A stretch of DNA of 64,000 nucleotides from Desulfosarcina sp. BuS5 (GTDB taxonomy: Bacteria; Desulfobacterota; Desulfobacteria; Desulfobacterales; BuS5). Every line of letters starts with the position of its first letter. The stretch's first letter is position 1. The stretch is from NCBI RefSeq assembly GCF_028752835.1, contig NZ_CP087952.1, forward strand, positions 1,965,041-2,029,040, in the 5' to 3' direction. Shown here piece after piece: positions 1-9,779 of this stretch. Under the pieces are notes generated by a model. The model had not been told where the DNA came from, searched no databases, and was given only the letters and a program-made list of their open reading frames with translations. A program made the translations under genes and the position numbers.

Positions 1-805
1 CTTGAGGATCTGTATTTACAAACAGCCTGGGTTTATTTCCGGTTTGAGATTCGACGACACTTATAACCATATGGCCGTATTTTAGGCTGCCGGGCCGCTG
101 TTCCTTTATTATCTTAGCCTCTGATATTTTGCCCCTTACGCTGACAATTTCGACCCTTCCGGTTTCAATCCTTTGAACATCTAATATCTCTCCGGTTTTG
201 GGATGCTTTATCACATTCCCTTCTTTGTATACTATAAACTGCATTCCTTTTTTAACACCAGCCGATCCTCCCAGGTCGATAACAACATTTTTTCCGTCCC
301 TTTGCACTATATAGCCTTTTAGTGGAAAATCGTTAATTATCTTTTCCGCCATTTCATACACCATATCTTCAAGTCTGGTCACACTTGTGCTTTTTACACC
401 TTCGGCGGCTACTACCGAGGCATTCTCTACATCAATAATTCTGGCATTGACCTCCAGTACTTTCTGATATCTCATAATCGAACCGGATATAACGACTTCA
501 ACCCCCAGCAATTTGCCTATTTGCGAAGCGCTGCTTTCATTTACAACGCCGGTCATCACCAGCTTTTGCTCCTCGAGTATTTTTTTTAACAAGCTGCGTT
601 CAATTACTTCAAAACGCCCGTTTTTAACAAAAGCGGTGATAAGCCACTCTGCTACGATTTTACCCATATCAGCAGTTTCATGCCCCTCACCCTGTATCTG
701 AAAATCAAGGACTGCAATCCTGGTTTTTTTAAAACCGGCTGACACAGACAATGGAGATATAATCAGAAATGTTAAAGCGATAAATGAGGCGATTATTTTT
801 TGCAT
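1..805 (-). CDS. CsgG/FlgT-type secreted protein (3' end beyond window)
   Basis: The reading frame runs from an ATG at 805 to the window edge, so the C-terminus is missing. It opens with a Sec signal peptide (MQKIIASFIALTFLIISPLS) ending near SVSAG. The following 150 residues read like the CsgG family: IAVLDFQIQGEG, a GKIVAEWL segment, FEVIERSLLKKILEEQ and then VVISGSIMRY. The later part (VVIDLGGSAGVKKGMQFIVY) resembles the FlgT C-terminal or beta-barrel-like OB module that often follows CsgG-like domains. It starts two bases after the stop of the upstream gene, so the two are translationally coupled. Probable role: outer-membrane or periplasmic assembly factor in the exported-protein locus; the exact partner is unknown. 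Confidence 0.75.
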   Translation of the reverse strand, partial: MQKIIASFIALTFLIISPLSVSAGFKKTRIAVLDFQIQGEGHETADMGKIVAEWLITAFVKNGRFEVIERSLLKKILEEQKLVMTGVVNESSASQIGKLLGVEVVISGSIMRYQKVLEVNARIIDVENASVVAAEGVKSTSVTRLEDMVYEMAEKIINDFPLKGYIVQRDGKNVVIDLGGSAGVKKGMQFIVYKEGNVIKHPKTGEILDVQRIETGRVEIVSVRGKISEAKIIKEQRPGSLKYGHMVISVVESQTGNKPRLFVNTDPQ

Positions 806-807
806 GT

Positions 808-1959
808 TTAGTCCACCCCCACCCTGTTTTCCAGTAGAATGCTTACCCTTGAACCTTCTATATCTGTAACTGACAGTTTTCGGTTCCCAAACTGTTTACC
901 ATCAACCGCTTCGCTAAAAGAATCCGCATCACCCTTATATATTACAGATAGCGCAAGCCGGCCTTTTCCAAAACTGCGCTTGTTTACTGAAACAACACCA
1001 GGAGTTTCAGCAAGCATGCTTTTAATTTTTTTCTGCTCTTTAAAACTATCAACATTTTTGATGGCTATATCAAGCACAATGCCATTGTTGGCTATATCCT
1101 GGAAAGAAGAAAGAATTTTTTCAAAAAGTTTTTGATCCATCAGTTTTATGGCTGCTTTTTCCACAGCTTTCATTTTGGCAAGTTCTTCATCGGTATGAAC
1201 TGCGGCAGCGCTGGCAGATTTTGAGGCAACCACTCGTGCATTAGAGCAGTTAACTACTTTAGCTGTAATGCCGGCCTGGCCGGATTTCATGCCGGCGCTG
1301 CTTAAAAAATCACTACTGGCGAGGCTTTTTTTTACTTTACCGACAATTATATATTCAGCGCTGTTCTCAGCTCCAATCCGGGCTGCTGCTACAGGATCAC
1401 CGTCTGTCGCCCGATGTATAAAATTATCATCTTTTTGAGTCAGGGCTGCTACAACTGCGGCGTCAACCAGATCAAATCCTTTCTCGCTTAAATAATCTAC
1501 AATTGCGCTTTGAGCATAATCACCATCCTCTTCACGCATAACGACCATCATGCGGGGTCTGTCCATTGATTCAAGCAGGATTTTCAAAGCGATAAGGTCA
1601 TCTTTGATCTTTGCAAGAGCAACCGTAGCCTCAATCTTTATATAATACACACCATCGGGCTGCTTTTCCTCTTTCAGGACATTGTACTTTTTAACCGCGC
1701 CGATCGTTTTGGTCAGAACAACATCTTTTTGAACTTCAAAATTTTTAACTTCGGTTTCTGAAATAATCACCAGGCCGACACCCTGTTCAACTGCATCCCG
1801 CTTGGCTTTTAACAGGGCGTCACTTCTTGTTGTTCCGAAGCCCTCAGCCTTAACCAAAGTATCTCCATTGCGGCCTGTGGCGCATGCAAGCTCATGACTT
1901 GCAATATGAGCGCTTGTCAATAAAAAAAATAACAAAAAATATAATATTTTTGGCTTCAT
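808..1959 (-). CDS. FlgT/LPP20-like secreted protein
   Basis: 383 residues with a signal peptide (residues 1-26, ending near ACAT). Residues about 35-75 show the pattern typical of FlgT N-terminal or LPP20-like domains: AEGFGTTRSDALLKAKRDAV, then EQGVGLVII and a VKNFEVQ segment. Residues about 130-230 contain MVVMREEDGDYAQSAIVDYL and EYIIVGKVKKS, resembling the middle CsgG-like domain that binds alternate copies in FlgT. The C-terminal 110 residues (VLDIAIKNVDSF, then a SVIYKGDADSF stretch) look like a small alpha/beta repeat. It lies directly upstream of the partial CsgG-like gene with only 2 bases between them. Inferred to be a periplasmic or outer-membrane assembly component. Confidence 0.65.
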   Translation of the reverse strand: MKPKILYFLLFFLLTSAHIASHELACATGRNGDTLVKAEGFGTTRSDALLKAKRDAVEQGVGLVIISETEVKNFEVQKDVVLTKTIGAVKKYNVLKEEKQPDGVYYIKIEATVALAKIKDDLIALKILLESMDRPRMMVVMREEDGDYAQSAIVDYLSEKGFDLVDAAVVAALTQKDDNFIHRATDGDPVAAARIGAENSAEYIIVGKVKKSLASSDFLSSAGMKSGQAGITAKVVNCSNARVVASKSASAAAVHTDEELAKMKAVEKAAIKLMDQKLFEKILSSFQDIANNGIVLDIAIKNVDSFKEQKKIKSMLAETPGVVSVNKRSFGKGRLALSVIYKGDADSFSEAVDGKQFGNRKLSVTDIEGSRVSILLENRVGVD

Positions 1960-2068
1960 GTTTTATTGTTCGTTATATTAATAAAATAAAATCAACGGTT
2001 ATTAGAGAGTTCGTACTTTTAGCAATAGTCCTTATACGTTATGACCGACATCTAAAAAGTGTCCAGGT

Positions 2069-2300
2069 ATGGCCGTGGAAAACCCGTCAAAAATAAATCG
2101 CGAACCGTTTTGTACTATGAATACAGGTTTGATCGGGCAACAGGATGAATGGCCCGCGGCTGATCTTTTAAAACTATACAAGAGCCAAATCGGCATTGAA
2201 AAGAACTTCAGCTTTCTGAAAGATCCGGCAGTTGTAAACAGCATTTTTCTCAAAAAGGCTGAAAGGATCGAAGCTCCTGGTTTTATCCTTCTGATCTCCC
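2069..2300 (+). pseudogene. IS1634-family transposase C-terminal remnant
   Basis: The frame encodes LLKLYKSQIGIEKNFSFLKD, then PAVVNSIFLKKAERIEAPGF and ILLISL, which is the signature of the C-terminal third of IS1634/IS4-type DDE transposases (a Y-x6-E motif followed by a FLKDP segment). There is no start region, no DDE catalytic core upstream and no visible inverted repeats, so only a piece survives. It sits in the plus orientation inside a minus-strand operon. The homology stops at about 2296, where another reading frame takes over. Confidence 0.7.
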
Positions 2301-2400
2301 TGCCGACAAAGAAAACGACCTCTTTTATGATGACAAGGCATATGAAAATTTTTACTTAGTGCCCATCGATTTTACTTTTTGTGAGTTTATCAAGAAATAA
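2296..2400 (+). pseudogene. C-terminal fragment of an unrecognised gene
   Basis: In the frame one base off the transposase remnant, 34 codons read LPADKENDLFYDDKAYENFY then LVPIDFTFCEFIKK before a TAA at 2398. The composition looks protein-like rather than random, and it begins exactly where transposase homology ends. It is probably the tail of a gene whose front was removed by the same rearrangement. I do not recognise the family. Confidence 0.3.
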
Positions 2401-2406
2401 TATATG

Positions 2407-2808
2407 CTAATTTTTCACAAATTCAATATATACTTTTTTAATATCAAGGACATTATCTATCATGGCGCTTGCTTCAAAGGCGCCTGAACCTCCGGGATTA
2501 ATAATTTTATGATTATTGACATCTGCTTCAGTTGTACAAACCACGTCATAGTTGCTGTCCAGAAAATATATGATAACGGTTCCTCTTGCAGGATTAAGGC
2601 AGGCATTTTTTACTACGCCGCTTACTGTAATTTGTTTTTCAGGGTAGGCTTCTGCTGTAATATTTTCAACAGGATATTCTGATCCGGAGAATGTCGCCGC
2701 GCCATAGTTGTGTACACTTTCGCCAAGCACTGATAATGCAGCCACGGTGGTTACAATTTTTAACACCAAACATAAAAGGATTGTTTTTTTGATCATTTTT
2801 CGCCACAC
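2407..2808 (-). CDS. Secreted FxLYD-like domain protein
   Basis: 133 residues (129 if translation starts at the second ATG, 2796). A hydrophobic export signal covers residues 5-25. The remainder matches the pattern of FxLYD-type domains: VSGVVKNACLNPARGTVIIY, then FLDSNYDVV and an NPGGSGAFEA turn, with an alternating hydrophobic beta-sandwich pattern. These domains are small extracytoplasmic beta folds, and no enzymatic residues are seen. The gene follows the protease gene in the same orientation (30 bases apart), so it may be cotranscribed. Function unknown. Confidence 0.5.
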   Translation of the reverse strand: MWRKMIKKTILLCLVLKIVTTVAALSVLGESVHNYGAATFSGSEYPVENITAEAYPEKQITVSGVVKNACLNPARGTVIIYFLDSNYDVVCTTEADVNNHKIINPGGSGAFEASAMIDNVLDIKKVYIEFVKN

Positions 2809-2838
2809 ATCCTAAAGTTATGCTGCAGCAAGCAGCTG

Positions 2839-4293
2839 TTAGGATAAATTTTTAGATCTATCCGCGCTGATATTATACCTCTGTAGAATCCTGTTGCTTA
2901 ATTGTTTAACCTTGTTTACTTCAAGGACAATCATATAGCCACGAATGTCTTGAACGATATGATATTTCTTGTTATTTTCTTCAAAAGCTTTTATCAGATC
3001 CTTTATTGTGGATATCTTGACCCCGTTTACATAATCAATAATATAATTCTGACAATCATGATATCCGACATTAATTTCATCGGCCAGGACTTTAACCAGG
3101 ATAATAACTTCTCGTCTTGCTTGCGAAGGTTCGCCGTTAAGATAGAAGTTAAGAAGATCTGTCGGAGCATTCATCATCCAGCTATTATTGTTCATCCCGA
3201 ATTCAGTAAGATAGTTCAGTGTTAAAGGTTCAAACACCAGTCCGCCCGTTATGTAATATACAGGGGGAGTGTCATATTGCTGGTGCGGAACCAGACGATC
3301 ACAATCGAGGGATTTGGTTAATTTAATTTTAATGTTTTTATACCTGTTATCTCTTTTTATTGTTAATTGCAGAAAATCATTTATCTGTTTTTGCTGGAAT
3401 AAATATCCAAAAAAAGTTCTTTCTCCTTTCCTGAACTCTATAGTACCATCATTTGCAATATTAGTGCCATTTATCTTGACAATGATATCACACGGCAGCA
3501 GTATTTTTTTTGCCGGGGAATCAGGATAAATTCTGTTTACAAGAACTCCGGTTTCATTTTTCGAAAAAGCAAACTTTTCTCTTATATCCGGATTTTCCAT
3601 TTTTTGCATGGATATTCCAAGGCCTGGGGTACCATCGTAAACGCCATCTTCAATATCGGTGAGAAAATGCTTAATTATCGGAACAGGAACCATATATCCT
3701 ATATTCTCAATATTTTCACCGTACATGCCTTGAAATGCAACGCCGATGATCTGATTGTCTTTGATTACAGGCCCTCCGCTGCTGCCGGAATTTATCGGCG
3801 CATCAATCTGGCATGCCAGCAGGTAGGCGCTGCTGTGTGTGTATTTGCTATGTTCAATCCTTGAAACAACACCTTCGGTAATACATAATTTGTCGCCTCC
3901 TTCAGGGAAACCATAAACAGCGGCTTTATCTCTGAACTTTGCCAGTTTTCCAATTTCAACAGGCTTTACGTCTGCAAAAAAGGAGTTATCCGCAACCGCT
4001 AAAATGGCCAGATCGCATTCATGGGCTATTGTTTCAATTCTGGCTGTATATTTTTTTGCTTTTCCGGCCCGCCTTACCTGGATAAAAGTCTGATCGCTCA
4101 CGACATGGGCATTAGTTAAAATTCTATTGCCTTTGATAATACAGCCGGATCCGTGAAAAGATTTTTGCCCCCATTTTTGCCAGGGTTCGTGATAATTATA
4201 ACAGTTAAATACAGTGTAAATTTTTACCACTGCATCTTTTACTTCGGTTTTTGCAAAACAATCTCCAGCCTGAACAAGGCAGAGAATTAACAC
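2839..4293 (-). CDS. Trypsin-like HtrA/Deg9-type serine protease with PDZ-like domain
   Basis: 484 residues. The catalytic triad is visible: His in RILTNAHVVSD (about residue 64), Asp in HECDLAILAV (about 95) and Ser in NSGSSGGPVI (about 178). A PDZ-like segment follows (GVLVNRIYPDSPAKKILLPC, then DIIVKINGT) and further PDZ-like sequence lies near the C-terminus (INVGYHDCQNYIIDYVNGVK). The arrangement and the YGENIENIGYMVP segment resemble the Deg9 subgroup. The N-terminus is hydrophobic and leads to an export site. The only in-frame start before an upstream stop is GTG at 4293, which gives an unusually short signal peptide (see findings). Likely a periplasmic quality-control or processing protease for the surrounding exported proteins. 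Confidence 0.8.
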   Translation of the reverse strand: MLILCLVQAGDCFAKTEVKDAVVKIYTVFNCYNYHEPWQKWGQKSFHGSGCIIKGNRILTNAHVVSDQTFIQVRRAGKAKKYTARIETIAHECDLAILAVADNSFFADVKPVEIGKLAKFRDKAAVYGFPEGGDKLCITEGVVSRIEHSKYTHSSAYLLACQIDAPINSGSSGGPVIKDNQIIGVAFQGMYGENIENIGYMVPVPIIKHFLTDIEDGVYDGTPGLGISMQKMENPDIREKFAFSKNETGVLVNRIYPDSPAKKILLPCDIIVKINGTNIANDGTIEFRKGERTFFGYLFQQKQINDFLQLTIKRDNRYKNIKIKLTKSLDCDRLVPHQQYDTPPVYYITGGLVFEPLTLNYLTEFGMNNNSWMMNAPTDLLNFYLNGEPSQARREVIILVKVLADEINVGYHDCQNYIIDYVNGVKISTIKDLIKAFEENNKKYHIVQDIRGYMIVLEVNKVKQLSNRILQRYNISADRSKNLS

Positions 4294-4349
4294 AAATGAA
4301 ATTTTAAATAAAACCTTGATCTCCTCATATCACGTCAAAGACATTGCTC

Positions 4350-5027
4350 CTAATCCCTGATCAACTCAGCAACACCGGTAATGTTTTGTGTAATTTCAAC
4401 GGGATTTCCTGAATAGAACAGGGTTCCCGCCCCGCTGATCTCCACATCTAATTTCTGTGAAGCATATACATGAGCATCACTGGCGCCATTTATTTCAATT
4501 CTTACGTTCTCTGCTTTAAAATTTTTGGCATTAAGTTCCGAAGAACCTGATAAAACAGCTGTAAAATCACATGTTATACCTTGCAGATAAATGTCGCCGG
4601 ACCCGCTTATGTCTAATGAAAAATTATTATTATCAAGATTGCTTATATCAATATCTGCTGCTCCTGATGAACTAACGGTTTCAATGTTTTCAATCGCAAC
4701 CTTTACAACTAATTGGATTTCAGAGCATATTGCCGCATCGGAATAAATATGCAGTTTATTTCCCTTTACCCGGGTGATGATATGCTTCAGGAGATTGTCG
4801 TCGCCTGTAATTTTAAGGCTTTTTTTCTTTTGGCATACAACCACCAGATCAAAAGCGCCATCTATCTCAATAGAATCAAAGCTTAAAATATTACGATTTT
4901 CAGTTTTAAGCTTACCGCTTCCTTTAATACAATCATTATAGCTGTCTGCCGGTGATTGAACCACGCCTGCGAGAAAAAAAACAGCAAGAAAAAAAAAGTA
5001 GTTCGATGTTTTTTTAAAAAATTTCAT
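4350..5027 (-). CDS. GIN-domain (DUF2807) secreted protein
   Basis: 225 residues with a signal peptide (residues 1-28). The rest is typical of the DUF2807 head GIN domain: a GSGKLKTENRNILSFDSIEI entry, IDGAFDLVV, LKITGDDNLLKHI, and then repeating short beta strands with SSSGAADIDISN, SGSGDIYLQG, SGSSELNA and NGASDAHVYA. Such proteins fold as right-handed beta-solenoids and are exported, but a defined biochemical role has not been settled. The next gene upstream ends only 3 bases before this start (5031), which supports one transcript for this exported-protein set. Confidence 0.75.
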   Translation of the reverse strand: MKFFKKTSNYFFFLAVFFLAGVVQSPADSYNDCIKGSGKLKTENRNILSFDSIEIDGAFDLVVVCQKKKSLKITGDDNLLKHIITRVKGNKLHIYSDAAICSEIQLVVKVAIENIETVSSSGAADIDISNLDNNNFSLDISGSGDIYLQGITCDFTAVLSGSSELNAKNFKAENVRIEINGASDAHVYASQKLDVEISGAGTLFYSGNPVEITQNITGVAELIRD

Positions 5028-5030
5028 CGC

Positions 5031-5321
5031 TTAATACGAATTAAAATGTTTGTTCAAATTATTTTTAACAACAACGCTATTATTGCTTATACCATATACT
5101 CTGGTATAAACATTTTTAGCCTCACCTGAAACCGTGTCAACAACGAAGGCTCCCATACCGCCGGCCTTTTCACCGAAAGTTCCGCCCCATGCGGATATTT
5201 GATACCTTCCGTTATTTAATGCCGGCTGATTATCTGCTCCTGTAAGAAAAAGAATTCCTAACACAACAAGCATTCCAAGAAGAAAAAACTTAAGCCTTTC
5301 TTTAAATATTTTATTTTTCAT
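5031..5321 (-). CDS. Small exported protein, unknown family
   Basis: 96 residues. A signal or anchor helix spans residues 10-29 (FFLLGMLVVLGILFLTG). The mature part has a glycine-rich stretch (ISAWGGTFGEKAGGMGAFVV) followed by a VDTVSGEAKNVYTRVYG strand pattern. A good ribosome-binding site (GGAGG) lies just upstream of the ATG at 5321. I do not recognise the family. Its position 3 bases before the GIN-domain gene suggests the two products work together. Confidence 0.55.
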   Translation of the reverse strand: MKNKIFKERLKFFLLGMLVVLGILFLTGADNQPALNNGRYQISAWGGTFGEKAGGMGAFVVDTVSGEAKNVYTRVYGISNNSVVVKNNLNKHFNSY

Positions 5322-5421
5322 GAATCAATCCTCCTTGCGGCGCTGAAAAACTATCCCCTTTACATCCCGCGGCAGGCAATTCAGGATGAAGAAAAGGGGG
5401 CTATAATTTTATCAAAACGAC

Positions 5422-6168
5422 TTATTTCTTTTGGGCGGTTTTATAATCGTCTTCCCGCGCTCCTGAGCCTTCTACTTCAATAATTTCATCTTCGCCAACA
5501 ATCCCCTCACCCATCATGGCTGCGACTTCTTTGGTATTCAATCGCATTTTTACAAAAGCATCACCGGATTCATCCCAGCCATAATCAACAACTTCAGCCA
5601 GGTATGTGGTGGCCATTACTTTTGTTTTTACGAGATCGGAGGTCAGCATGTAATTTTTTACGGTTGATTGACTTTCAAGCGTAAAACCGACTATCCGTTT
5701 TATTATCTGGGTATAGGCATCCAACTCAGCCGCCCGCAACGCTTTTAACGGGCCGCTCTGGGAGGGAGTTGAGGTTGCAAAGCCGACCCTTCTGAATATT
5801 TTATTGTTTAAATCTATTGTTTTGCCGTCAATATTCGTTATAGAGTCTAACTGGATGGAAGCAGTAGCTTTGGCAATATCTTTCTCAGGATCATATACTA
5901 CATCTTCAATCTTGATCCCCTTTATTTTTGCAGATGTTTTAGATTCTGTACTACCAACAAAGCTGGCTGCTATCATATCCTTTACTTCTTCAGTGGCCCG
6001 TAATTTCAAGCCATAAACCGATTCTACAATAGCTCTTTCCGCAATTATTTTAGCAGCTCTTGTCGTCATTATCTTTTTGTTGCCTGCAAAGGCAGTCGGT
6101 ATGGCTAGTAATAAACATGTTGCTGTTATAAAAATATAGTTAAGGGTTTTTGATATTCTTGGTTGCAT
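5422..6168 (-). CDS. LPP20/FlgT-N-like secreted protein
   Basis: 248 residues with a signal peptide (cleavage after TAFA, about residue 28). Two segments carry the LPP20/FlgT-N pattern of an Arg/Ala-rich helix followed by a glycine turn: AAKIIAERAIVESVYGLKLR early, and ALRAAELDAYTQIIKRIVGF later, each followed by beta strands. This suggests two tandem copies of the domain. Such domains occur in outer-membrane-associated assembly proteins. The C-terminal 20 residues are charged. Its start overlaps the end of the preceding gene by 29 bases, indicating tight coupling. Confidence 0.6.
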   Translation of the reverse strand: MQPRISKTLNYIFITATCLLLAIPTAFAGNKKIMTTRAAKIIAERAIVESVYGLKLRATEEVKDMIAASFVGSTESKTSAKIKGIKIEDVVYDPEKDIAKATASIQLDSITNIDGKTIDLNNKIFRRVGFATSTPSQSGPLKALRAAELDAYTQIIKRIVGFTLESQSTVKNYMLTSDLVKTKVMATTYLAEVVDYGWDESGDAFVKMRLNTKEVAAMMGEGIVGEDEIIEVEGSGAREDDYKTAQKK

Positions 6169-6589
6169 CTCCCTCTCCTTCTCCCTCTCTTTTATGAGGA
6201 GTATCTATTATTTGCTTACTATCAAAAACAATTCGTCCATTAATATCAGAATTGCTTTTTTTGATATTCGTTTCAAACTTTTCTTCTTTTATATTAACAG
6301 CTTTTTTATTATAACCGCCAGTATTGGAGTCGGTTTTATGCTTCTTTATCGGAGATATTTTTTTTCCATAAATATCAAAACGGTATCCCTGGCCATAGGG
6401 CCTGGCCTTTGCCTTTATGTCGATTACGGCATTGCCTGGAATGTTTGCAATTTGCTCTATTGCATCTTTATTAAGGTCATTCAGCTCCTGTGTTCTGTTT
6501 TCAATCATTCCTTTGTTCCCGGCCAGCGCCGGAGGGTGGATGAAGACTATCAGTCCCGCCCATAATATATAAAACGAACTGTATTTCAT
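6140..6589 (-). CDS. Exported basic/charged protein, unknown function
   Basis: 149 residues. Residues 1-24 form a signal peptide ending in ALAG. The mature chain is hydrophilic, with a short AVIDIKAKARPYGQGYRFDI strand-like segment and then a Lys/Asn-rich disordered tail ending in a REGEGEGDATKN stretch. No known domain is evident. A AGGCAGG ribosome-binding site precedes the ATG. It lies between the CsgG-like lipoprotein and the LPP20-like gene and overlaps the latter, so it probably belongs to the same secretion-associated operon. Confidence 0.55.
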   Translation of the reverse strand: MKYSSFYILWAGLIVFIHPPALAGNKGMIENRTQELNDLNKDAIEQIANIPGNAVIDIKAKARPYGQGYRFDIYGKKISPIKKHKTDSNTGGYNKKAVNIKEEKFETNIKKSNSDINGRIVFDSKQIIDTPHKREGEGEGDATKNIKNP

Positions 6590-6635
6590 TATGGCCTGCC
6601 TAAAAGTTCAAGAGAGAAACCGATTTTTTCTGCTT

Positions 6636-7988
6636 TTACCATTCATCATCACTAAGCATTCGACCGATTCCAGCGTTACCTCGAACAGTATTTTTTTGCT
6701 CGGTTTTTCTTTTTGTAACAGTTACCGCTCTTTCAGGCGGCGCAGCTGCTGTCCGCTGTTCCGCTTTTACTGGAGTCGCAGCAGCTTTTTTCTGACTTTT
6801 AACATACTTTTGGGCAGGTTCTGCCGTATGCGCGGTAAGAGACGGTTCTATATGCAGCCGTGCAAATTTCTCCCGACGACCCAGTGTCTTTGCATTACAG
6901 GGGATATCAATATATAAACGAAGAAAGGTATCAAGGTCTATAGATGTTTTTGATGGATCAAATTTATTATATTTTTGCAATGCCTTTTTGGTTTGTGCGT
7001 CAAGCTTGCCGGTCGGGTTCACATCATACCCATGCAGAAACAGCCACTCCTGTGAGCTTAAAATTTTCTCTTGTTCCGTCATTCTGTAAAAACGTTTAGT
7101 CAGTCTTCCAATAACCACTTTATCTGCCATGGCGCCATCAAGCAGTTTCCAATACGGCAATCCAAGATATTTGCCTATCAGTTGAATCATACTGGCCTGG
7201 ACAAGCAGCCTGACAACATTATGTCGTCCCTGAACTTTTTTGATAGACCCTTTCCTTCCAAATGTAGGTCCGAAAATTGAAACAGCAAACTCTTCATTCG
7301 CCAGCGCTTTATGAACTACCATGCTGTTGGTAGTGGTCATTTTTTTTATACCGGCAAGTGTCTGAAAATTTTTTAAATTAAAATCAAGTGTTATCCTGGC
7401 CTTGCCCTGTTTGCCCGCCTTGTTATATTCAGCAGATACTGTCTGCGAAGGCAGCCATGACCATAATCCGGTAAACGTCGCTTCCGCTCCAACATCAGTG
7501 CCGTGCCCCCTGGTTTCAAGCCCGCGATCAAACTCTGTAATCCCTCCGGTTATTACCACATCAGGTATCATTTTATCAGTAAAGCTGGAATAGCCTGTAA
7601 CCATTTGATTCTGAATATAGGCCGGATCATATTCTATAAACTGGACATTCCCGCCCACAGAATTAAGTGTGCTTTTCATTATCTCGGTTATATCTCTCTG
7701 TATTTCTCCACCGGTACTGACGGATGTGCCGGTCTCGTCACCGATCCCCTGGCTTTGAATTTTTAAAGGTCCCGTTGCATAAATCTCGGACATTAATCCC
7801 AGAGCATCAAGAGCATCAGAATATGAGGTCACCTTTATCTCAGGCTTTGATTGTTCCAGTTGAACATCAACATTTTTAGGGTCAATGGCGCAAGAAAATA
7901 AAAACTGAACCAAAGCCAGGGATACAAAAAACTTAAAGTAGCAACGTGTTGATTTTACAGGAAACAAGTGTTTCATCATGCCTCGCAT
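6636..7988 (-). CDS. CsgG-like outer-membrane lipoprotein with peptidoglycan-binding-like tail
   Basis: 450 residues. A lipobox is visible (LVQFLFSC, Cys at about residue 33), so the mature protein should be lipidated. Residues about 50-290 show CsgG-family features: ITEIMKSTLNSVGGNVQFIE, DVVITGGITEFDRGLETRGH, ARITLDFNLKNFQTL and a VVRLLVQASMIQLIGKYLGL segment. Residues about 310-350 (SSQEWLFLHGYDVNPTGKLD, then AQTKKALQKYNKF) resemble a PG_binding_1 repeat. The C-terminal 80 residues are Ala/Lys/Thr-rich. In curli systems CsgG forms the lipidated outer-membrane export pore. Here it lies just downstream of the repeat-protein genes, which suggests it exports or anchors them. Confidence 0.7.
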   Translation of the reverse strand: MRGMMKHLFPVKSTRCYFKFFVSLALVQFLFSCAIDPKNVDVQLEQSKPEIKVTSYSDALDALGLMSEIYATGPLKIQSQGIGDETGTSVSTGGEIQRDITEIMKSTLNSVGGNVQFIEYDPAYIQNQMVTGYSSFTDKMIPDVVITGGITEFDRGLETRGHGTDVGAEATFTGLWSWLPSQTVSAEYNKAGKQGKARITLDFNLKNFQTLAGIKKMTTTNSMVVHKALANEEFAVSIFGPTFGRKGSIKKVQGRHNVVRLLVQASMIQLIGKYLGLPYWKLLDGAMADKVVIGRLTKRFYRMTEQEKILSSQEWLFLHGYDVNPTGKLDAQTKKALQKYNKFDPSKTSIDLDTFLRLYIDIPCNAKTLGRREKFARLHIEPSLTAHTAEPAQKYVKSQKKAAATPVKAEQRTAAAPPERAVTVTKRKTEQKNTVRGNAGIGRMLSDDEW

Positions 7989-8053
7989 TTAAAAAATACA
8001 ATTTATTAAAATAGAGCAGGTTCCAAAAAGTTTAACTTCGTTCGAAGATCAAG

Positions 8054-8178
8054 GTTGATAAACTCGTAAAGAGTCCGTCGCAGAAAATTTAGACACAATA
8101 TGTTGTGGAAACTAGCAAAGCTGTCCCTATATACTGATGTAAAATTTTTAATTTTTGACTTTTTACGACGCCATCAAG
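8054..8178. repeat. Imperfect inverted-repeat element (MITE-like)
   Basis: The spacer between the CsgG-like lipoprotein and the small exported gene holds an imperfect terminal inverted repeat. The left arm GTTGATAAACTCGTAAAGAG begins at 8054 and the right arm (GACTTTTTACGACGCCATCA) lies near 8158-8178 as its approximate reverse complement. No coding capacity is seen inside. It resembles the non-autonomous elements found elsewhere in this window, but no second copy was found here. Confidence 0.45.
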
Positions 8179-8251
8179 ATTTGTGCCTGACCAGATAGCA
8201 GCAGACAGACGCAGGCTTCGTAAAGAAGTGTTTTGAAATCGGTTCAAGTAA

Positions 8252-8608
8252 TTATTTGTCAACAACCTGTGTTTTAGCGCCCCTGCTTTCATCTATTATA
8301 TAAACATCGCCCTTGATGATACCTCCGGCGCCCAGAACAACGCTGTTCATATTGGCGCCTTTGGACGTGTCCATCGAACCACCGGAATCACTGCCTGATG
8401 CCCTGCTTTTTACGTCCGCCCTGCTTTTTGCATTTAATTTTATAAATTTGATGTTTTTTTCCGGATCACCAAGGTCATCATATTTGGTGACGCCGTCATC
8501 TGTGTATTTTGATATACCATCATCCAGGTCACCACTAAGACCAGGATTTACCAAAACAAAAAAACAAAAGATCATCATAGTGAAAAAAAAAAAATATTTT
8601 TTTCCCAT
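8252..8608 (-). CDS. Small secreted companion of the repeat protein
   Basis: 118 residues from the ATG at 8608, which is preceded by a strong GGAGG site; an upstream in-frame ATG at 8650 lacks one. There is a signal peptide to about residue 25 (PGLSG). The mature part has two related acidic segments (DDGISKYTDDGVTKYDDLGD) and then KFIKLNAKSRADVKSRA. The final 35 residues contain GANMNSVVLGAGGIIKGDVY, which echoes the ANMGSVQLKNSNVRGSV motif of the neighbouring repeat protein. This supports a shared fold, possibly as a minor subunit or nucleator. That role is inferred, by analogy with curli CsgB. Confidence 0.6.
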   Translation of the reverse strand: MGKKYFFFFTMMIFCFFVLVNPGLSGDLDDGISKYTDDGVTKYDDLGDPEKNIKFIKLNAKSRADVKSRASGSDSGGSMDTSKGANMNSVVLGAGGIIKGDVYIIDESRGAKTQVVDK

Positions 8609-8673
8609 AATTTTTCCTCCACATTTCCAGGAATATAGATTGTCTGACAATTAATTGTACATAATTATTGGTC

Positions 8674-8710
8674 GTGAGTAATGTGAAGCATAAAACGTCA
8701 CATTACTCAC
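8674..8710. terminator. Perfect 13-bp hairpin between repeat gene and downstream genes
   Basis: GTGAGTAATGTGA (8674-8686) and TCACATTACTCAC (8698-8710) are exact reverse complements with an 11-base loop. There is no long U-tract, so it may act as a partial terminator or as an mRNA 3'-end stabiliser that leaves the upstream subunit mRNA in excess. It lies 29 bases past the stop of the repeat gene. Confidence 0.6.
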
Positions 8711-8738
8711 TTTAGGGCGAGAACCCTCAGGATTCATA

Positions 8739-9560
8739 TTACTTAACTACAACCGAACCCATATTAGCTTCGGCATTTCTTCCAACGGCGACATTAGCAG
8801 ATTTATTAACAAGAGCTCTATTGCTTACAGAGCCTCTGATGTTGGAATTTTTAAGCTGCACCGAGCCCATGTTGGCTGTAGCGCCCCTTCCAACGGCGAC
8901 ATTAGCAGATTTATTAACAAGAGCTCTATTACTTACAGAGCCCCTGACGTTGGAGTTTTTAAGCTGCACCGAGCCCATGTTGGCTGTAGCGCCCCTTCCA
9001 ACGGCGACATTAGCAGATTTATTAACAAGAGCTCTATTGCTTACAGAGCCTCTGATGTTGGAATTTTTAAGCTGCACCGAGCCCATGTTGGCTGTAGCGC
9101 CCCTTCCAACGGCGACATTAGCAGATTTATTAACAAGAGCTCTATTACTTACAGAGCCCCTGACGTTGGAGTTTTTAAGCTGCACCGAGCCCATGTTGGC
9201 CGTAGCACCCCTGCCTACTGCGACATTAGCTGATTTATTAACAAGAGCTCTATTGCTTACAGAGCCCCTGACGTTGGAATTTTTAAGCTGCACCGAGCCC
9301 ATGTTGGCCGTAGCACCCCTGCCTACTGCGACATTAGCTGATTTATTAACAAGAGACCTGTTGCTCACTGTGCCCCTGACGTTGGAATTCTTGATTTTAA
9401 CGGAACCGGTGTTTGCCTCAGCCCCTGCTCCGACCGCAACATTGGCGGATTTGTTGACTATAGTCTTATTGGATACCCTGCCTTTAACCTCGGATCCGGC
9501 AAAAGAGATAGTTGCTCCCAAAAAAAGAATACCTGTTGCTATTGCGATAGTTTTTTTCAT
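8739..9560 (-). CDS. Secreted seven-repeat beta-rich protein, candidate fibre subunit
   Basis: 273 residues from the ATG at 9560, which has a GGAGG site 5 bases upstream; the longer frame to 9608 has none. The signal peptide is MKKTIAIATGILFLGATISF with cleavage after AFA. The mature protein is seven units of 36 residues. The consensus unit contains VNKSANVAVGRGATANMGSV followed by QLKNSNVRGSVSNRAL. Positions of Asn, Gly, Ser and Val recur with strict spacing and there are no Cys, Trp or Pro. This is the pattern of a beta-solenoid or of amyloid-type repeat proteins such as CsgA, although the curlin Gln/Asn signature itself is absent. Its position ahead of a CsgG-like gene supports export as an extracellular fibre subunit. 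Confidence 0.7.
   Translation of the reverse strand: MKKTIAIATGILFLGATISFAGSEVKGRVSNKTIVNKSANVAVGAGAEANTGSVKIKNSNVRGTVSNRSLVNKSANVAVGRGATANMGSVQLKNSNVRGSVSNRALVNKSANVAVGRGATANMGSVQLKNSNVRGSVSNRALVNKSANVAVGRGATANMGSVQLKNSNIRGSVSNRALVNKSANVAVGRGATANMGSVQLKNSNVRGSVSNRALVNKSANVAVGRGATANMGSVQLKNSNIRGSVSNRALVNKSANVAVGRNAEANMGSVVVK
8757..9500. repeat. 108-bp tandem repeat array (7 units)
   Basis: The array encodes the seven 36-residue units of the secreted protein. Inner units are over 95 per cent identical at DNA level. Two variant types alternate (differing at ATTGCTT/ATTACTT and at GGAATTT/GGAGTTT), giving a 216-bp higher-order period in the downstream half. The outermost units are the most diverged, as expected from expansion by unequal exchange in the centre. 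Confidence 0.85.
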
Positions 9561-9779
9561 TTTTACCTCCTTAAAAAAAATTAAAAAAGACATCATTATA
9601 ATGGACAATAGATTATCATACCCCTATATTTCTGCATATAGAGTTAATTAATAAAAAGCAATACTCTTTATTTATTTTTTTGGACTCAGAACAAGACGTA
9701 ATTTGCAATGATATCATGTACTTTATTTTATATTAACCCAAGCAACTATTATGCCATAAGCGTTTCGCAAAATTTTGGT

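Follow-up and report, generated by a model that had tools for sequence, protein, structure and literature searches.

A conserved cassette of three genes, encoding a secreted repeat protein (REP), a small secreted companion (SEC2) and a CsgG-like outer-membrane lipoprotein, was found on the minus strand of the window, i.e. the whole 64,000-nucleotide stretch of Desulfosarcina sp. BuS5 DNA that was analysed, and its probable role is to export a β-solenoid protein across the outer membrane and assemble it into an extracellular polymer, as a system dedicated to this task. This reading draws on the co-occurrence of REP and the putative pore, their conserved order and strand, the CsgG fold of the pore, the uncapped REP solenoid, the two subunit sizes, the variable number of units and the Asn/Gly ladder.

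To begin with, species genomes were scanned with an alignment of the pore, which gave 99 relatives, and 80 loci were kept. Under a strict count (same strand, ≤3 kb upstream of the pore gene), REP appeared in 59 of the 80 loci, co-conservation of gene order being a check that the preliminary description of this DNA had proposed. The 21 exceptions included 11 loci with <2 kb of contig upstream and four with REP downstream, and in another (L114) a divergent REP-like gene had been overlooked by the unit model. When the unit model was combined with synteny, 64 of 81 loci had REP, for the most part at gene offset -2 or -3, and 67 had SEC2, for the most part at -1. Moreover, the order and strand of REP, SEC2 and the pore gene were also kept in loci of several other genera, and these three genes are the core of the conserved cassette. 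Among 96 genomes of the same order, 11 had a pore match and nine had REP, all nine lying within the pore set. When 296 genomes were sampled evenly over the phylum, REP and a strong pore match turned up in the identical five genomes (a distribution with a chance of about 5e-11, if genomes are independent), while three remote pore matches occurred without REP. Thus, repeat genes without a CsgG-like gene were sought at the genome level in these 296 genomes and none was found.

The cassette loci came from at least seven phyla, namely Thermodesulfobacteriota, Pseudomonadota, Nitrospirota, Campylobacterota, Planctomycetota, Elusimicrobiota and deltaproteobacterial bins labelled Myxococcota, these being NCBI labels of which several rest on single metagenome bins. 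The hosts are many, unrelated and mostly sediment-dwelling bacteria, and they include cultured strains such as Methylotuvimicrobium buryatense 5G and Desulfobulbus species, which makes the cassette testable. In the pore tree, grouping by phylum exceeded chance, yet 16 changes of phylum label were counted against a minimum of 6. This would fit some transfer, although mislabelled bins could contribute.

REP (8739..9560, minus strand; 273 aa) has a Sec-type signal followed by seven units of 36 aa, and an AGGAGG ribosome site lies ahead of the start codon, ATG at 9560. It is the single REP gene of this genome and the putative fibre subunit, of the short type. The seven 36-residue repeats reported earlier were recovered by Tandem Repeats Finder as a 108-bp period with 94% matches. 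In the unit model, built from 267 repeats, Gly7, Asn11, Gly24 and Ala29 were invariant and Asn20 reached 98%, percentages that are upper bounds because the collecting pattern fixed several of these positions; the positions of an Asn/Gly ladder are present in the unit. Across loci, the units were contiguous and numbered 3 to 29. The short type had a median of 7 units, and the long type had a median of 16.5 and a maximum of 29, ending in SNKNSVV or a similar sequence; both types were found together in 16 loci. In one genome (G095, L037:10503-12874), four REP genes lie in tandem, and three hardly differ over their readable parts (two contain N runs), suggesting a recent duplication. In another (G006, L045:4900-5847), a FecR-domain protein (1.8e-13) carries two REP-type units at its end, and this gene sits on a different contig from the pore gene of that genome.

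The structure of REP, modelled with two extra codons ahead of the ATG, was predicted as a regular solenoid in which each 36-residue unit forms one coil (pLDDT 92.6, pTM 0.87). The coils reach the last C-terminal residues, and neither end is capped. Such an uncapped solenoid is the form to be expected if subunits join by their ends. However, form does not prove polymerisation, and nor does the fold alone imply it, since the solenoid resembles the soluble β-helices of autotransporters and lyases. Foldseek searches with the model returned nothing at E≤0.001. With VIA, the best match among solved structures was the autotransporter passenger Vag8 (Z 15.9), and the matches to autotransporter, tailspike and pectinase β-helices indicate a general solenoid fold only; FapC and CsgA were absent among the VIA matches listed. 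Sequence matches of REP in the PDB were to chance entries or pentapeptide-repeat proteins and were set aside as matches of repeat composition, while those in PHROGs were families without assigned function.

The putative export pore (6636..7988, minus strand) is a CsgG-like outer-membrane lipoprotein with a PG_binding-like C-domain. Both its lipidation, with an invariant lipobox Cys33, and its peptidoglycan-binding-like tail agree with the first description. By sequence, it is barely recognisable, scoring 13.0 bits against the Pfam CsgG profile (cut-off 20.8), and only 7 of 56 pore family members matched this profile at 0.01. A model computed from the 56 natural sequences (pLDDT 83.4) showed an α/β domain, four long strands (144-252) at the place of the CsgG membrane hairpins, and a helical C-domain. 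The top 25 Foldseek matches in the PDB were all CsgG structures (best 7.6e-10, vs. 4.8e-3 for FlgT), and comparison with CsgG by VIA gave Z values of 14.5-16.2, the best covering 212 residues with an rmsd of 6.2. FlgT and PelC were the next families, at Z about 10-11, so that by structure scores the protein is nearest to CsgG and not to FlgT (10.9). The two single-chain models thus gave a β-solenoid for REP and a CsgG fold for the pore. A profile alignment to E. coli CsgG had a weak probability (46%) and placed DETG on the invariant D-x-T-G of the pore family. The loop behind this motif has a fixed length of 7-8 residues and is free of aromatic residues in 66 of 81 members, whereas that of E. 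coli CsgG is longer and includes Tyr51, Asn55 and Phe56. Hence, to judge from the loop, the constriction of the pore is probably built otherwise than in CsgG. The C-domains differ among members, being PG_binding, DUF4384 or TPR. A search of PDB sequences with the pore profile retrieved only PG_binding proteins and chance matches, which were rejected, and a plasmid search found one relative (23% identity) in Azospirillum, annotated as DUF4384 and adjoining an OmpA gene.

SEC2 (8252..8608, minus strand; 118 aa) has an acidic start, a basic middle and the motif NSVVLGAGxxxxGDIYII at its C-terminus. Its family is present in 67 loci, 60 of which place the member at gene offset -1. The C-terminus had been described as echoing the repeat. 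Scored with the REP unit model, one of the 67 members exceeded the 99th percentile of shuffles, so that no clear echo appeared. With a model spanning the unit boundary, made after this result, nine of the 67 did (none or one in each of four control families). The window's own SEC2 stayed below the 99th shuffle percentile with the boundary-spanning model; the echo thus persists, weakly, in some members of the family and is lost for the member in which it had been noticed. Most likely, SEC2 is a guide or starter associated with the pore, with a CsgF- or CsgB-like role, which would fit its position and motif. The name nucleator, given to it at first, is one that its weak motif might suggest.

Following the core on the minus strand, four genes encode frequent partners. 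These are s150 (6140..6589), an exported accessory present in 22-24 loci (24 of 80 by BLAST), whose clustered members all have gene offset +1; an exported LPP20-domain protein lacking a lipobox (5422..6168; Pfam LPP20 6.5e-6; 38-42 loci); s96 (5031..5321), small and membrane-anchored or secreted (33-34 loci); and an exported GIN-domain (DUF2807) protein (4350..5027; Pfam 6e-36; 32-33 loci). They are followed by two occasional genes, also on the minus strand, an HtrA/DegP-type protease with PDZ domains (2839..4293; Trypsin_2 2.2e-20, PDZ_3 3.8e-44; 12-13 loci) and the exported s133 (2407..2808), which BLAST found in 8 of 80 loci and clustering in 15, and which elsewhere is often on the opposite strand. 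Finally, two minus-strand neighbours lie outside the cassette, a FlgT-like gene (808-1959; 2 of 80 loci) and a second CsgG-like gene running from 805 leftwards (L003:14251-15846; 3 of 80 loci), with Pfam matches to CsgG (5.5e-15), FlgO (2e-8), PEGA and TPR. The Pfam matches of the LPP20-like, GIN-domain and HtrA-type genes uphold their earlier naming. On the other hand, the earlier assignment of two CsgG-like genes to one system conflicts with the co-conservation of the second in only 3 of 80 loci, and core status for the protease is unsupported at 12 of 80. Regulatory genes were also observed in other loci. In L059:4571-5227, L066:6843-7538 and L072:6842-7510, a divergent Crp-like regulator, by eye of the cyclic-nucleotide-binding type, lies directly upstream of the pore gene, and its cluster is represented in nine loci. 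In Desulfobulbus elongatus (L109, 3822-5699 and 9820-15138), an FHA-GAF-sigma54 activator gene lies upstream and genes for a VWA protein, an FHA-ABC transporter and a Ser/Thr kinase lie downstream, a layout seen in Desulfobulbus-type loci.

Compared with curli (csgBAC and csgDEFG of E. coli; type VIII secretion), the cassette shares an outer-membrane lipoprotein of the CsgG fold and small secreted repeat subunits, for which there are sometimes two genes. In both, the repeats are imperfect and rich in Asn, and solenoid stacking is predicted for them. It differs in the length of the repeat (36 aa vs. about 22), in its accessory genes, and in the additional C-domain and the shorter, mostly non-aromatic constriction loop of its pore. 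Pfam profile searches of the whole genome gave no match to Curlin_rpt (PF07012), CsgF (PF10614) or CsgE (PF10627), as the earlier report of no CsgA/B/E/F homologue had it. With a CsgG pore by fold and neither CsgA/B, CsgE nor CsgF, the cassette fails to qualify as curli. Regarding Fap (fapABCDEF of Pseudomonas), the repeats of FapC end in gasGNΨGΨNΨaaG*gNqQNΨ (PMC12392863), which the stretch ANVAIGxGNxANMGSV of the REP unit resembles, the likeness running along N-Ψ-A-x-G-x-G-N-x-x-N-Ψ at a similar repeat length. Against the REP unit model, the three FapC repeats obtained 5.9-6.9 bits, values reached by 0-1 of 300 shuffles, and CsgA was less clearly above shuffles than FapC. The claim that no Fap homologue is recognisable was consequently too strong. 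Nevertheless, this likeness is a lead that falls short of demonstrated homology, as Fap has three repeats of 38-39 residues separated by linkers, vs. 3-29 contiguous units of 36 in REP, and a Greek-key arch, vs. a predicted β-helix with a CsgG-type pore.

According to the preferred reading, REP would enter the periplasm unfolded via Sec and leave the cell through an oligomeric pore of the CsgG-type lipoprotein, which may be attached to peptidoglycan by its variable C-domain (PG_binding, DUF4384 or TPR). Outside the cell, REP would fold into stacked coils of 36 residues each, and contacts between the free ends of such stacks may link the subunits into a curli-like surface fibre. SEC2 would guide REP at the pore or start the assembly, and the LPP20, s96 and GIN proteins may serve as envelope or adhesion accessories. 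Counting against this reading are the likeness of the solenoid to ordinary, soluble β-helices, the score of the window's pore below the Pfam CsgG cut-off, the lack of a CsgE or CsgF counterpart by sequence and the weakness of the SEC2 echo. One alternative, of low probability, is that the system is an HfaABD-like anchor and not a fibre: repeat proteins exported by a lipoprotein of the CsgG/HfaB type would be retained at the surface and hold an exopolysaccharide or a holdfast-like adhesin there. The HfaABD holdfast anchor of Caulobacter likewise combines a CsgG-like lipoprotein, HfaB, with small exported partners, HfaA and HfaD depending on HfaB for their surface location (PMC6707917), and REP may be as short as 3-4 units and has a GIN-domain partner. 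However, synteny clustering of the loci found no polysaccharide genes recurring beside the cassette, long-type subunits have up to 29 units, and the architecture of REP and SEC2 appears distinct from HfaABD.

It is less probable still that REP is a soluble or monomeric solenoid (an adhesin, or a ligand- or ice-binding protein) that passes the CsgG-like pore without polymerising. Its confident fold as a single chain and the Vag8 passenger as best solved match (Z 15.9) would suit such a protein, but both ends of the model are uncapped, the number of units varies freely, paralogues of two sizes occur in tandem and the exporter is of the CsgG type. Finally, a flagellum-related envelope ring of the FlgT/FlgP/FlgO type in place of an exporter is very improbable. 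Although LPP20 is a FlgP-like partner, FlgT ranked second to CsgG and FlgO- and FlgT-like genes adjoin the cassette, CsgG scored clearly above FlgT, the pore model has long hairpin strands, and co-conservation with the cassette is lacking for these neighbours (2 and 3 of 80 loci).

Overall, the view of a curli-like yet distinct exporter with its own repeat subunit gained support from co-conservation, co-occurrence and the two predicted structures. None of the findings named beforehand as refuting it was encountered, the relation to FlgT being judged by structure scores. The core inference is thus right for the most part, and the sequence alone could not show how broad the system is, a form of CsgG-type export whose subunit family is unnamed. 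Among exported bacterial amyloids, curli and Fap are the model cases, and CsgG is in use as a nanopore. The cassette may well represent a further widespread surface-fibre system beside these two, with a polymer of uncapped 36-residue β-solenoids of two sizes, a divergent CsgG pore with a PG-binding or other C-domain, a differently built gate, and a cross-phylum, partly transferred distribution. If it is such a separate system, CsgG pores would serve beyond curlin-type substrates, and structure and materials work would gain new fibre proteins, whose Asn/Gly ladders are very regular, together with new pores of altered constriction. No description of the cassette was found in open-access journal papers. 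In a recent GTDB survey, curli and Fap operons were counted on condition that CsgA/B or FapB/C repeats matched close to other genes of the operon (PMC12822426). Screens relying on CsgA/B repeats and Pfam CsgG probably overlook most cassettes.

In the window's genome, the minus-strand cluster stands immediately behind rplU-rpmA-obgE-proB. It comprises eleven genes, the last one crossing the window edge, where the preliminary description counted ten, all of them exported; by eye, export signals are visible in all eleven. Promoter and terminator scans performed no better than shuffles. The gap between proB and proA amounts to 14.6 kb (window 1-9779 with L003:10188-16001), occupied by the cluster and further exported CsgG/FlgT-type genes. 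In a congener (G002) whose ProB is 92% identical, proA begins about 110 bp past proB, and the two genes also adjoin in several further members of the order. Therefore, the stretch is a lineage-specific island, which either was acquired by this lineage or has disappeared from the sister lineages. To the left of the window, a convergent plus-strand cluster (L003:10513-14151), present in few of the 80 loci, encodes a CsgG-family lipoprotein, a putative outer-membrane barrel protein and a second FlgT-like protein.
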